This document shows, piece by piece, positions 4 through 13,738 of a DNA stretch of 22,495 nucleotides. Below the pieces are notes generated by a model. It was not told the DNA's origin. It searched no databases and saw only the letters and a program-made list of their open reading frames with translations. This stretch comes from a virus. Numbering within the stretch: the first letter of the stretch is position 1; each line of letters starts with the position of its first letter. The stretch is from positions 1-22,495 of IMG/VR virus record IMGVR_UViG_3300043409_000960, one strand, 5' to 3'. Both the position numbers and the translations under genes were made by a program.

Positions 4-597
4 ATGGACAAACCAATAAAAAAAACCGCGACGGCTAAAGCCGTAAAGATAGCACCAAGAAAAAAGCCAGTTAAAAAAACAGGGGTTACTAAGTTAGTCA
101 AGTTGACAGATAAACAAAGGTTTGAAAACGTAATATTTTTAATTCGAGAAAATGGGTTTTCTTTGGTTAAAGCATTAAAGAACAATAAAATAAGCTCTGA
201 AACATTTTACAAGTGGCTAGACTTTGGAATTGATGCAAAGGACGAGGAAAGCCCTCAATTCACAAAATTAGCTTACACGCGCGCGTGCGAGCAAAGAGAG
301 GCTTTAATTTTTGATGAAATAATTGAGATAGCAGACGACAGCTCACAGGATAAGATAATTAAAAAAAGCAAGTCGGGCAACGAGTACGAATGTGAAAACT
401 TTGAATTTGTAAACAGGTCACGTTTAAAAATTGACGCTAGGAAATGGATTTTAGGAAAATTAAACCCTACAAAATACGGGGACAAAACGACAATCTCAGG
501 GGACAAGGAAAACCCGTTACAGGTTGTGCATAATGTAGTATCTTTAGGCTCAGGAATTGACCCTAACCAAACCGAAGAAATAAAAGTAATTGAGTAA
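4..597 (+). CDS. terS: Terminase small subunit, Sf6-type
   Basis: This 197-residue protein probably binds phage DNA and hands it to the large terminase for packaging. Residues about 1-35 are very Lys-rich and likely disordered. A helix-turn-helix-like segment follows (about residues 37-75, with SLVKALKNNKISSETFYKWL). The part YTRACEQREALIFDEIIEIADD and the later RLKIDARKWILGKLNPTKYGDK are typical of the Sf6-like small terminase family; the second is the family's most recognisable signature. It is the first gene of the window and is separated from TerL only by the HNH gene, which fits a terS-terL pair split by an inserted endonuclease. The start at 4 is the first ATG available in the window, so a slightly longer N-terminus cannot be excluded. 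The family call is firm; the DNA-binding role is known for the family, not shown here. Confidence 0.9.
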   Translation: MDKPIKKTATAKAVKIAPRKKPVKKTGVTKLVKLTDKQRFENVIFLIRENGFSLVKALKNNKISSETFYKWLDFGIDAKDEESPQFTKLAYTRACEQREALIFDEIIEIADDSSQDKIIKKSKSGNEYECENFEFVNRSRLKIDARKWILGKLNPTKYGDKTTISGDKENPLQVVHNVVSLGSGIDPNQTEEIKVIE

Positions 598-1155: not shown

Positions 1156-2499
1156 AATTATTATTGAAGCAAGAACACGCAACGTTTTATATGAAAGACA
1201 GCACTACCACAGAGTTACTCTATGGGGGCGCTGCCTTTTATCCCCCGCTTATTTAATTAGGTGGGGGAGATTTTAGCTGGTGGCGGGAAAACCGCTTACG
1301 GTTGCCTTTGGTTAATTGAAGGTTGCCAAACTTATGCGGGTTCACGTTGGTTAATGGGGCGTAGTAAATTAAAAGCCCTCAAAGAAACAACCTTAAACAC
1401 ATTCTTTGAGGTCGCAAGCGAATTAAATGTAAGCGATCAATTCACTTTTAACGCTCAATCAAATATCATTTACTTTAAAAATGGTTCTGAAATTCTTTTA
1501 AAAGATTTGTTTCTATATCCTAGTGACCCCCTTTTTGATTCTTTGGGGTCGCTTGAGATTACGGGCGCTTTTATTGACGAATGTAACCAAGTGACATTTA
1601 AAGCGTGGCAAACAGTTAAAAGTCGTATTCGTTACAAATTAGATGAGTTTAATTTAATACCTAAACTTTTAGGGAGTTGCAACCCCGCCAAAAATTGGAC
1701 TTACAAAGAATTTTATAAACCGAGCATGGCAAAATCTTTGAAACCATATCGAAAGTTTATTCAAGCTTTACCAACAGATAACCCGCACCTCCCGCCGTCG
1801 TATTTAGAAAGTCTTTTGCAATTAGATAAAAACAGCCGTGAGCGTCTTTATTATGGTAACTGGGAATACGACGACGACCCGAGTACATTAATTGACCAAG
1901 ACGCAATAACTGACTATTTTAACCCCGTCCATTTGTTACCTACCGGTAAAAAGTATATTACAATTGACGTTGCGCGAAAAGGTCGGGACAAGTCAGTTAT
2001 TCGGGTTTGGTTCGGCTGGCTTTGTATTGAGGTTGTCGAAATTGATAAGAATACAATAACCCAACTGGCGGCAATTGTCAGGACTTTACAAGCCAAACAC
2101 TCAATATCAAACAGTCACACGGTAGCGGACGAGGACGGCGTCGGGGGCGGGCTTGTCGATGTTTTAAGATGTGACGGGTTCGTTAATAATTCAAAGGCTT
2201 TAAACGGCGAAAACTACGAAAATCTAAAATCACAATGCAGCGTGTCAATGGCTCAAAAGATTCAAGCCCGACAAACAGGCGAAACAAATACGCAAGGAAT
2301 AACCCGTGATATTATAGGCGAAGAAATGGAGCAAATAAAGCTCAAGGACATTGACAAAGACGGGCGTATCGGTATTGTCTCAAAAGATGTTATCAAAGCA
2401 AACATAGGACGAAGCCCCGACCATTGGGACAGTATAATGATGCGCTTTTATTTTGAACTTAAACCCCGAATATCAAAACCGACAAGCCGTTTATTATGA
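1152..2499 (+). CDS. terL: Terminase large subunit, reading frame split by a 43-nt bypass-like gap
   Basis: This is the ATP-driven packaging motor and nuclease. It is encoded in two frames: 1152-1235 gives 28 residues ending YGGAA, and 1279-2496 gives 406 residues starting GGGKT. Joining them gives a 434-residue TerL of normal length. Numbered on the joined protein: Walker A G26-x4-G31-K32-T33; Walker B FIDE at 126-129; a coupling-type motif GSCNPAKNW from about 160; RNase H-like nuclease with D258 (TIDVARKGRD), D312/D314 (ADEDGVGGG) and D409/D412 (SPDHWDS). Without the join, the upstream frame stops at TAA 1254, and the downstream frame opens only after TAG 1258. Initiation at GTG 1261 would give a 412-residue protein lacking the first Walker A glycine. 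Everything downstream looks intact, so I favour an expressed gene with translational bypass (see the gap at 1236) over a pseudogene. The TerL identity is firm; the bypass is inferred. Confidence 0.92.
1236..1278 (+). other. Coding gap inside the terL Walker A codons, candidate translational bypass element
   Basis: Ala codon GCC (1233-1235) is the proposed take-off and Ala codon GCT (1276-1278) the proposed landing site, both readable by one tRNA-Ala. Re-pairing there skips 43 nt and resumes at GGT 1279, restoring YGGAAGGGKT. The gap holds a stop TAA (1254-1256), a hairpin (1241-1268), a GAG 6 nt before the landing codon (1267-1269), and a TTTTA repeat at each edge (1236-1240 and 1271-1275). 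T4 gene 60 bypass uses the same parts: matched codons, a stop in a stem-loop after take-off, and a GAG shortly before landing. An alternative pairing is GCT 1230 to GCT 1276, which drops one Ala but still leaves GxxxxGKT. At about 43 nt it is too small for a self-splicing intron or an intein. Confidence 0.8.
1241..1268 (+). promoter_or_regulatory. 11-bp mRNA hairpin with the stop codon in its loop
   Basis: Bases 1241-1251 pair with 1258-1268 without a bulge: U-A, five C-G, G-U, C-G, U-G, U-A, A-U. The six-base loop (1252-1257) is UUUAAU and contains the UAA that ends the upstream terL frame. The stem begins 5 nt after the proposed take-off codon. It also buries the GTG at 1261, making that codon a poor separate start. 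Confidence 0.8.
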
Positions 2500-3225: not shown

Positions 3226-3663
3226 ATGATTCAACAAACGATTAGCGCTTTAGTTGCTCAAATGGATGCAAACGGCGACACATTCGCATTTTTACACGGA
3301 GACAAAGACTGGCAAAACATAACAGCGGACGAGGAAACGTTACCAGCCGTTTATTTGGATATGCCTATACGTTATAAAACGGTCACGTCACAAACTGGCT
3401 ACAAAGAAAAAACGTATTTTCTCGCTGCATTGTTTTTGTACAAATCACAACTGGACGATACACCACTTGAAAAATATGAAGTGTTTGAACTTGCCGAAGA
3501 GGCTCAAAGAAATTTTGAAATCTTAATCGACAACGACACCGATAACATAAAGAGCTGGACGGTCGGCGAATGTTACCAAGTTGAAAACCTTTTTAATTGC
3601 AACGTGTCGGGCGTAATTATGCCTTTTACTGTAACCCTTGTTAATGCTGATTCCGTATGTTAA
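3226..3663 (+). CDS. Putative tail terminator / tail completion protein
   Basis: This 145-residue protein starts 1 nt after the preceding stop. It has an N-terminal helix (MIQQTISALVAQM), a central beta-rich part (LPAVYLDMPIRYKTVTSQ, EKTYFLAALFLYKSQ), a helix (EKYEVFELAEEAQRNFEILIDN), and closing strands ending in MPFTVTLVNADSVC. This small alpha/beta layout and a conserved-looking C-terminal strand are similar to tail terminator-like proteins found beside connectors in Bacteroidetes prophages. Position fits too: it precedes a connector-like gene and the large tail proteins. The residues alone do not prove the role; it could equally be another small neck component. Confidence 0.45.
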   Translation: MIQQTISALVAQMDANGDTFAFLHGDKDWQNITADEETLPAVYLDMPIRYKTVTSQTGYKEKTYFLAALFLYKSQLDDTPLEKYEVFELAEEAQRNFEILIDNDTDNIKSWTVGECYQVENLFNCNVSGVIMPFTVTLVNADSVC

Positions 3664-3851
3664 GCCGCCAACAAAAAAACGCTTTAGTCAGAAGATTAAA
3701 CGACCCCGCAAAAGCAAAAGGAATTTTAAATAATTTTTACGACAGCGAATTAAAACACCGCCGAAAACTAAAAGAAAAAAGACGGTTTAAAATCGCTCAG
3801 ATAGTTATCATTTGTTTATTTATTGGACTCACTATTTTACTTTTTGTTTAA
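3657..3851 (+). CDS. Small single-pass membrane protein, unknown function
   Basis: This 64-residue protein has a strongly basic N-terminal two thirds (RRKLKEKRRFK at about 35-45) followed by one hydrophobic helix at residues 46-64 (IAQIVIICLFIGLTILLFV) that runs to the end. That suggests a tail-anchored inner-membrane protein with a basic cytoplasmic side. It overlaps the previous gene by 7 nt and the next by one base (TAATG), so it is translated as part of the tail operon. A membrane protein here is unexpected for a virion-building segment; an exclusion or accessory role is possible, but nothing in the sequence shows one. Confidence 0.6.
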   Translation: MLSRQQKNALVRRLNDPAKAKGILNNFYDSELKHRRKLKEKRRFKIAQIVIICLFIGLTILLFV

Positions 3852-4309
3852 TGGCTTCGGATGCTGAAATACTAAAGCAATTCGCCGACGTAATCGTCCC
3901 AGCGCTTCAAAGTGTTTCAAAACGTTTCGCGCCCTCTATTGAGTCCGAAATAACAGAAACAAGTTTAACCATTTACGCAAGTCCTTATATTACAACCTTA
4001 ATCGACGGGCGCCGCCCGACAAGTTCAAACGCTAGGGCTGGAACTCCAAACCTTCAAAAGATTCTTTTAGAGTGGATTAAATCAAAAGGAATAACACCGA
4101 GAGCAAACAAGGCGGGAAACATACCAAGTTTAGAAAGTTTATCGTTTGCAATGAGTAAAAGTATGCACAAAAAAGGCGACTTGCTTTACCAACGTGGCGG
4201 CGGTAATAACATCTTTGAAACGATTATAACAGACAACCGATTAAATAATTTACTAAATTTATTCGGTGAAAAGTATTTAACCGAGATTCAAAACATAAAT
4301 ATAAGATGA
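3851..4309 (+). CDS. Putative head-tail connector / neck protein
   Basis: I take the start at ATG 3851, which overlaps the previous stop as TAATG; the open frame continues upstream to an ATG at 3812, but that would overlap the membrane protein's TM-coding part. The product is 152 residues: an N-terminal helix (DAEILKQFADVIVPALQSVSKRF), strands, a Gly/Arg/Pro-rich loop (LIDGRRPTSSNARAGTPN), a helix (LQKILLEWIKSKGI), and a C-terminal FETIITDNRLNNLLNLFGEKYLTEI. Such small basic proteins with a DGRRP loop and a terminal helix are usual in Bacteroidetes phage neck regions and may correspond to HK97 gp10-like proteins. Assignment rests on size, order and general appearance. Confidence 0.45.
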   Translation: MASDAEILKQFADVIVPALQSVSKRFAPSIESEITETSLTIYASPYITTLIDGRRPTSSNARAGTPNLQKILLEWIKSKGITPRANKAGNIPSLESLSFAMSKSMHKKGDLLYQRGGGNNIFETIITDNRLNNLLNLFGEKYLTEIQNINIR

Positions 4310-12610: not shown

Positions 12611-13251
12611 GCGTTTTAATTCCTGACAGACGAGACCGAAAAGACTTTTTAAATCACTGTCTTTTAATGGTCGGTAATCAAACCCGTTACCCTGACTTTA
12701 TCGAGCTGGTAAATTACGAGCCGTTAAGTAAAAGCGTTGATTTAACCCAAAGAGTTAAAAAAGGGTTTCACTCTTTGAAGGCTCAGGGGTGCGATTGCGT
12801 TTTAATAATGGAAAACGACGATTATTATTCTAAAGAGTATATTCAAACACTTTCAGAAAATTGGAATAATTCGGGACGTCCTGACATCTTCGGGACAAAT
12901 CAAACTATTTACTATCATTTAGGACAAAGAAAATACAACGTTTTAAAACATTCGGGGCGGGCTTCTTTAATGAATACTTTAATAAATTGTAACGCTGTTT
13001 TTGATTTTCCAGCCGACGATTTAATTTATTTAGATATTTATCTTTGGGAAAATTTAAACGGTAAAACCTTCACCCCTTATAATTTTTTGTCTTTAGGAAT
13101 AAAACATGGCGTCGGGCTTTGCGGTGGCAATGGTCACAATTCAATGCGATACAAAAACGACGATAAAGATTTAACATTTTTGAAATGTATTGAGCGCGAC
13201 AGTTTTAATTTCTATTCGTCCATATCGGTAAAAATGCAGACAAAGCGCTGA
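12601..13251 (+). CDS. GT-A-type glycosyltransferase-like protein
   Basis: The 216-residue protein begins with a nucleotide-sugar-type fold (MVIGVLIPDRRDRKDFLNHCLLMVGNQTRYPDFIELVNY) and has an acidic motif ENDDYY at residues 71-76 after CVLIM. This fits the metal-binding DxD-like position of family 2 (GT-A) glycosyltransferases. A catalytic-base-like acidic cluster may be ADDLIYLD near 138-145. It lacks membrane helices and is short for the family, as is common in phage versions. It lies downstream of the fibre genes and converges with the minus-strand gene, overlapping it by 47 nt. Possible roles are modifying host surface glycans or virion proteins; the substrate cannot be told from sequence. 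Confidence 0.72.
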   Translation: MVIGVLIPDRRDRKDFLNHCLLMVGNQTRYPDFIELVNYEPLSKSVDLTQRVKKGFHSLKAQGCDCVLIMENDDYYSKEYIQTLSENWNNSGRPDIFGTNQTIYYHLGQRKYNVLKHSGRASLMNTLINCNAVFDFPADDLIYLDIYLWENLNGKTFTPYNFLSLGIKHGVGLCGGNGHNSMRYKNDDKDLTFLKCIERDSFNFYSSISVKMQTKR

Positions 13252-13738
13252 AACTTGAGCCGACATACAAAGACACCCCGCGAGCGTTTAACGCTTTTTT
13301 AAGCTCTTTAAAATCTGTTAACGCCTTGTCTTTTGAATTGCCTTTAAAATGTTTATGCGTTTGAAAGTCGGCGCCGTGTAAAACGATACATTTCGCCCCC
13401 ATTTTAAAAGCTAGGATTACAGCGACGTAAGTACTATTATTTGAATAGCAAAATTTATTATTATCAATTTCAGATACAAAACCCCGACCCCTATTAAATT
13501 CTATTTTGTTAAAGTTTGGTATAAAAGACCACTCGTCAAGCTGGGAATAAAAGCCCTCGCAATTTGTACTTTTTAAGATCGCTAAACGCTCACTATTAAA
13601 AGCCGTTGGAATATCAACGCAAACGACAAAATCGGTTTTAATTTTGCCGTGTATATCGTTGACACCTATCGTTGTGCAACCGTCGGGCTTATATTCGCTC
13701 AGGCTTTCGCCCATTCCTAAAACGTGTATTAATTCCAT
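13205..13738 (-). CDS. Rossmann-type protein, DUF115/GT42-like
   Basis: This is the only minus-strand gene here and encodes 177 residues. Residues about 4-15 read IHVLGMGESLSEY, close to the GNGPSL nucleotide-binding signature of DUF115 and sialyltransferase-like proteins. TIGVND at about 23-28, a central acidic VCVDIP, and a C-terminal NNSTYVAVILAFKMGAKCIVLHGADFQTHKHF fit the same fold. These proteins act on sugars or glycans (motility accessory factor and related enzymes); a direct assignment is not possible. It converges on the glycosyltransferase and shares the last 47 nt with it. Its start is 54 nt from the protease start on the other strand. The orientation suggests an acquired accessory (moron) gene. 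Confidence 0.65.
   Translation of the reverse strand: MELIHVLGMGESLSEYKPDGCTTIGVNDIHGKIKTDFVVCVDIPTAFNSERLAILKSTNCEGFYSQLDEWSFIPNFNKIEFNRGRGFVSEIDNNKFCYSNNSTYVAVILAFKMGAKCIVLHGADFQTHKHFKGNSKDKALTDFKELKKALNARGVSLYVGSSFSALSAFLPIWTNRN

Follow-up and report, generated by a model that had tools for sequence, protein, structure and literature searches.

Hairpin elements interrupting the Walker A motif of phage terminase genes are probably bypassed by the ribosome

The window analyzed here is the whole 22,495-nucleotide stretch of the viral record IMGVR_UViG_3300043409_000960 (positions 1 to 22,495). This 22.5-kb record encodes the small terminase subunit (TerS), an HNH endonuclease, the large terminase subunit (TerL), a portal protein, a protease and further structural proteins. 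A minus-strand open frame of 177 aa (13205-13738) lies amid the plus-strand structural genes. The terS gene (4-597, plus strand), upstream of the genes of interest, matches Pfam Sf6_terminase (E 6e-22) and phrog_1482. It is followed on the same strand by an HNH (HNH_3) endonuclease gene (649-1155; PF13392, 2.5e-7; phrog_59, 1.6e-40), the putative homing partner of the element described below. The stop codon of the HNH gene overlaps the start of terL in the sequence ATGA (1152-1155).

The terL gene as a whole extends from the ATG at 1152 to 2499 on the plus strand and is broken inside the Walker A motif, after the second alanine codon. Its first reading frame comprises 28 codons (1152-1235), reads MKLLLKQEHATFYMKDSTTTELLYGGAA and ends in YGGAA; the product shares 89% identity with the first 28 residues of TerL from a near relative, L003, in which the gene is uninterrupted. 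The frame then continues through TTT TAT CCC CCG CTT ATT up to a TAA at 1254-1256. The second reading frame (1279-2499, plus strand), 406 codons starting at the resume codon GGT and encoding GGGKT onwards, matches Terminase_3 (2.1e-10); it is closed upstream by a TAG at 1258-1260 and is open from 1261 to the TGA at 2497-2499. Because the upstream frame ends at the TAA and the downstream frame is blocked by the TAG, the two do not overlap. An earlier sequence-only reading had described this arrangement and proposed that ribosomes hop across the gap; its coordinates are correct throughout. When GCC 1233-1235 is joined to GGT 1279, the result is, as that reading had it, a protein of 28 + 406 = 434 residues with the canonical Walker A motif YGGAAGGGKT. 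After the first 28 residues, the joined protein is 92% identical to the TerL of L003. Relatives with uninterrupted codons do exist: the nearest, L002 and L003 (TerL 92% identical), carry an unbroken YGGAAGGGKS. The place that the HNH gene takes in the window, between terS and terL, is filled in L002 by a pentapeptide-repeat ORF (3257-3904) and is empty in L003.

Codon comparison across the elements described below defines a take-off codon, GCC (Ala, 1233-1235), and a synonymous landing codon, GCT (Ala, 1276-1278). Between them lie 40 nt (1236-1275) that are putatively bypassed and that have homologs in about 70 other terL genes. The hop had originally been put at 43 nt; the gap is real, and the untranslated stretch is about 40 nt, the figure of 43 including the landing codon. 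In the element alignment, the take-off codon is followed by U at +4 (53/53 elements) and A at +5 (43/53), here at 1239-1240. Next comes an 11-bp hairpin (1241-1268, with 1241-1251 paired to 1258-1268), supported by folding and by covariation across 57 distinct rows. Its loop, UUUAAU (1252-1257), holds the UAA at 1254-1256, as had been noticed before; the hairpin has a predicted energy of -19.6 kcal/mol (z = -4.4), and none of 200 shuffled sequences was as stable. The G-rich 3' arm, a feature of 53/53 elements, forms part of a Shine-Dalgarno-like GGGGGAG (1263-1269) 6 nt before the landing codon, and the spacing first reported for GAG (1267-1269) relative to GCT (1276-1278) is accurate. The GA that follows the arm (1269-1270; consensus R A, with R in 52/53 and A in 49/53 elements) faces U+4 A+5. 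All these features are on the plus strand. No Rfam family matched at the insert site.

A first scan of TerL relatives revealed four others interrupted by a similar hairpin, three at the same codon (L004, L005 and L012) and one two codons earlier (L053). A pattern derived from the hairpin revealed the same element in the Walker A motif of a second, distant TerL family, where it splits QGGTSA from GKT. The first wide-gap scan, with TATCCCCC...GGGGGAGA, gave mostly chance hits and was superseded by stricter and then by insert-blind patterns. For the latter, we scanned 2.9 million viral contigs for an interrupted Walker A motif with two patterns in which the flanking Walker A codons were fixed and the 25-55 bases between them were free, blind both to the sequence of the insert and to its last codon. 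These scans returned 20 loci in TerL family A and 53 in family B. Every hit contained the hairpin element except L254, a chance hit lacking a hairpin, which we rejected. Since the patterns demanded neither a hairpin nor a matched last codon, these features are not products of the search.

Altogether, about 70 further terL genes from the two distant families are interrupted, and they yield 53 distinct element sequences. The search patterns covered these two families and one motif, Walker A. The uninterrupted genes used as controls were the best-scoring relatives rather than a random sample, and the sequences are related to one another, meaning that counts are not independent. In about 70 further contigs, drawn from numerous metagenomes, the same element occupies the same place in terL, and a chance origin of the window's insert is ruled out. 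In bacterial genome contigs, the strict pattern gave 28 matches, none of which was seen in a terL Walker A motif; the family B pattern found no element in 395 Bacteroidia genomes, nor did the covariance model among the portion of candidates scored in three genomes. Every record that bears the element is a metagenomic contig. We found no phage isolate with the element, and the TerLs of the nearest isolates are uninterrupted. In both TerL families, the closest isolated phages have Bacteroidota as hosts, and the element-bearing phages probably do too.

The 53 distinct elements share a common anatomy: the take-off codon, three free bases, U+4, A+5, the hairpin, R A, a short A/U-rich spacer, the landing codon and the resume codon. 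The hairpin is mostly 9-11 bp long and starts at +6 or +7, with a C-rich 5' arm and a G-rich 3' arm in 53/53 elements; the last GGG of the 3' arm lies 6-10 nt before the landing codon in 50/53. U+4 keeps a constant register with the take-off codon while the distance to the landing codon varies, which suggests that the ribosome takes its position at take-off. The gap measures 29-42 nt, and its length modulo 3 is 0, 1 and 2 in 29, 17 and 7 elements, respectively. A stop codon is the first codon after take-off in 7/53 elements and the second in 28/53; in the window it is the seventh. The approximately 28 residues that precede the take-off codon, the region relevant to a nascent-peptide stimulator of the T4 type, differ between families A and B. 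In every element, joining the frames restores a P-loop, either YGGAAGGGKS/T or QGGTSAGKT.

The codons at the two ends of the gap are closely matched. At offset 0, the first two bases of the take-off codon recur in the landing codon in 43/53 elements; no other offset between -12 and +6 gives more than 11/53. The remaining ten pairs are all GCN to GTA or GTT. Among the 47 Ala-type elements, the landing codon is accordingly GCN in 37 and GTA or GTT in 10, with no other change; GTA and GTT would still be compatible because changing the middle C to U keeps a G.U pair with the alanine anticodon. Where the element is inserted at a glycine codon (L053, L249, L250, L255, L257 and L287), the landing codon is also glycine. 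The take-off codons themselves are GCT in 30 elements, GCC in 10, GCG in 7, GCA in none and GGN in 6. Thus GCA is found at take-off in 0/47 Ala-type elements, compared with 45/115 uninterrupted relatives. At landing, GCA is the codon in 28/47 Ala-type elements, though it never serves for take-off. This asymmetry suggests that pairing is weak at take-off and strong at landing; alternatively, the avoidance of GCA at take-off could reflect the target preference of an endonuclease.

The hairpin is conserved in structure. Across 57 distinct rows, 91% of cells are paired, and 85 cells are changed on both sides, compared with 28 in shuffled alignments and at most 10 in slid ones; the covariation score is 0.46 versus 0.15. 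This alignment was fitted to the model's structure and is biased towards it; the same pairs appear when each element is folded alone. The closing pair of the hairpin by itself occurs as UA, GC or AU. The elements in the two families are evidently related: one from family A and one from family B can share as much as 86% identity, and a covariance model trained on family B alone still recovers the family A elements, the window's at E = 4.7e-8. In 22 longer records, the full model found one element per record; a second, low-scoring match in one of them was the opposite strand of the same hairpin. Model R1 found no element in 152 uninterrupted or otherwise element-free TerL loci.

The interrupted genes are under strong purifying selection. 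The dN/dS ratio is 0.013-0.07 between interrupted terL genes and 0.09 between the window's gene and the uninterrupted L002 and L003, and the downstream terL frames reach conserved lengths. The sequence-only reading had recognized that a second, intact terL in the same genome would mark this copy as dead; we found no second terL in the records searched, which may be incomplete.

An HNH gene adjoins terL at 26/71 interrupted loci (9/21 in family A, 17/50 in family B) versus 1 of about 108 uninterrupted loci (0/71 in family A, 1/37 in family B). Only interrupted loci with enough upstream sequence were counted, and L196, a long-branch chance entry among the family A controls, was excluded (hence 71 controls, not 72). 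At the 26 loci, 49-88 nt separate the end of the HNH gene from the element, which places that end at the terL start or slightly within the gene. A naive Fisher test gives p ~2e-11 for loci that are related to one another. The element has often been gained or lost, since its state changes on supported branches of the trees at least 7 times in family A and at least 10 times in family B. In independent pairs corrected for kinship, the HNH gene goes with the element in 1-2 of 7 cases in family A and 3-6 of 10 in family B and almost never goes the opposite way; the median p of this test is 0.5 (A) and 0.125 (B), not significant alone. The window's HNH gene does not figure in the sequence-only reading. 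The closest relatives of its protein by sequence alone, those of L371 and L372, are also encoded upstream of interrupted terL genes.

Three other loci have HNH genes in distinct settings. The sole uninterrupted terL with an adjacent HNH gene is in L298 (1850-2520), where the Walker A motif has AGT GCA at the position of TCN GCT/GCC/GCG in interrupted genes and the HNH motif reads VDH in place of VNH. In L373 (2093-2200), a family B terL follows directly after an HNH relative, and this terL has, in place of the Walker A motif, a 14-nt stretch without a hairpin, which breaks the frame; the region reads GGCACG TAACTTCATCTTCC AAAACA. Cleavage, or the loss of an element, may have left this stretch behind as a lesion. 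Finally, the related HNH gene of L392 (2501-3300) seems to be carried by a sequence, perhaps a group I intron, that interrupts a terminase gene.

What is the 40-nt insert in the window? By far the best explanation, to which we assign a probability of roughly 0.86 from the comparative sequence evidence, is that it is a programmed translational bypass element. The bypass proposed in the sequence-only reading gains support from gap lengths in every frame, a landing codon that fits the take-off tRNA even where the insertion site differs, a hairpin at a constant distance from take-off, an intact conserved TerL and the lack of a second copy in the searched records. No rival accounts for the whole of the comparative evidence. 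Its argument that a frameshift is inadequate can also be extended from the window, where the frames do not overlap, to the family, where all three frame relations occur: because gap lengths fall in all three frames, neither a single frameshift nor readthrough suffices. The first frame is open through the insert in a few elements (L004 and L005), as programmed frameshifting or stop-codon readthrough would allow, but in-frame stops are found elsewhere in the family, and the P-loop of the product would be enlarged by about 14 residues. We find this alternative scarcely credible.

The most serious competing view, though an unlikely one, is that an unfamiliar mechanism splices the insert from the mRNA as a tiny intron, perhaps the remnant of a group I intron. 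Removing exactly the insert restores TerL, a hairpin is present, and introns also harbor HNH genes from this broad family, apparently including that of L392 within a terminase gene. Yet there is no Rfam match and no conserved intron core, and 29-42 nt is far shorter than known self-splicing introns. Nor does splicing explain why the insert should end in a codon that matches the one before it, why that match should shift with the site from Ala to Gly, why landing codons should vary only among those that pair with tRNA-Ala, or why take-off codons should be free of GCA. The same codon matching would be left unexplained by skipping at the level of DNA or transcription, whether by excision in a sub-population or by RNA polymerase slipping past what is certainly a strong hairpin; we know of no mechanism for either and give this reading hardly any weight. 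It is also very improbable that the gene makes two polypeptides, the 28 residues and a reinitiated C-terminal TerL, functional or not. A GTG at 1261 does lie in the downstream frame, but the reinitiated product would lack a P-loop Gly at the canonical distance, association of fragments is not expected to repair a split inside the P-loop, and the N-terminal codons are conserved and the junction exact in 53 distinct elements. Finally, the element-bearing records are without exception metagenome assemblies, as might be expected if terL were a pseudogene or the insert a sequencing or assembly artefact. The recurrence of one element family in many independent metagenomes, its covariation, dN/dS ratios of 0.013-0.09, intact C-terminal frames of conserved length and the lack of a second terL in the searched records make this more improbable still.

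Both the ribosomal event and homing are inferred from sequence, and we propose that they would work as follows. The ribosome would decode GCC (Ala28) into the P site, and the hairpin, with its base one codon beyond take-off at U+4, would hinder normal decoding in the A site. Peptidyl-tRNA-Ala would then release the take-off codon, which is never GCA, the best partner of tRNA-Ala(UGC). The folded hairpin would be passed without decoding, and the tRNA would re-pair at the landing codon, GCU in the window and usually GCA elsewhere. Decoding would restart at GGU and yield the full-length 434-residue TerL with its Walker A motif intact. If peptidyl-tRNA is released and re-pairs in this way, matched codons, a match that follows the site when it moves, and avoidance of GCA are all expected. 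The G-rich 3' arm may aid landing in a Shine-Dalgarno-like manner; its role is uncertain because Shine-Dalgarno pairing is believed to be little used in Bacteroidota.

The bypass element is probably mobile, and its neighborhood makes homing by the adjacent HNH enzyme, in a T4-like cassette, likely. The enzyme would cut the uninterrupted terL of co-infecting phages, and the element would be copied in during repair. Once in place, the element would make the site uncuttable and so protect it from the homing endonuclease, as has been proposed for T4 gene 60. On balance, we lean towards a fuller account in which these are dispersed homing elements that ribosomes skip, in contrast to introns, which are taken out of RNA, and inteins, which are taken out of protein, and that are spread between the phages of the two TerL families by adjacent HNH endonucleases targeting Walker A and need little beyond a hairpin and a tRNA-compatible codon pair.

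To our knowledge, there is one well-studied case of efficient bypassing in bacteria and their phages, T4 gene 60. The literature we searched contained no description of a family of bypass elements in terL. The sequence-only reading had taken the window for a rare bypass in a packaging motor gene; bypass in terL is supported, and the window's case is one of a large family rather than a single one. The rules of gene 60 came from one sequence, and about 53 natural variants in gap length, codon pair, site and hairpin would make the minimal requirements readable and testable. If the link to HNH genes holds, it would provide a general route for bypass elements to arise and spread and, next to introns and inteins, a third means by which an endonuclease target can survive an insertion. 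A further consequence is that in many viral genomes the annotation of terL shows a broken gene or misplaces its start.

Ribosomes also skip numerous short inserts in the mitochondria of Magnusiomyces capitatus, where the take-off and landing codons of the byp elements sometimes match only in part (PMC5009743). Those elements belong to fungal mitochondria with relaxed decoding, whereas the present ones belong to bacterial viruses, with one gene, one motif and one element per record. The Streptomyces phage Hau3 also has a putative bypass in a terminase gene; that case is proposed to be tied to the rare UUA codon and to regulation, not to the skipping of an insert, and involves other hosts (PMC5009743). 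In Bacteroidota, a 29-nt hop was reported in the Prevotella loescheii adhesin gene and proved hard to reproduce in E. coli (PMC5009743). It concerns a cellular gene and is a single report without follow-up, and it is of interest here in view of the Bacteroidota hosts of the nearest isolates in both TerL families.

The closest parallel is T4 gene 60 itself, with a bypass of 50 nt and a neighboring homing-endonuclease gene (PMC5009743, PMC3014915, PMC11194080), and with a small stem-loop in the A site and a Shine-Dalgarno-like GAG 6 nt before landing (PMC11194080, PMC3014915, PMC5009743). Both systems combine a gap of similar length, a hairpin at the take-off site, a GAG or Shine-Dalgarno-like sequence 6 nt before landing and out-of-frame resumption, and both lie in a phage gene adjoined by an HNH endonuclease gene (PMC5009743, PMC3014915, PMC11194080). 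They differ in that the present elements interrupt terL at Walker A, use alanine (or glycine) codons that are often only synonymous, and have a single hairpin one codon past take-off whose G-rich arm mostly ends 6-10 nt before landing. A stop immediately after take-off, which stimulates bypass in T4 and is no requirement for it as such, is found here in 7/53 elements. T4 offers one element, compared with about 53 distinct related ones here, in phages whose hosts are probably Bacteroidota. The terL elements are probably an instance of the same process as in T4 gene 60, but in the form of a dispersed, probably mobile family with an anatomy of its own.
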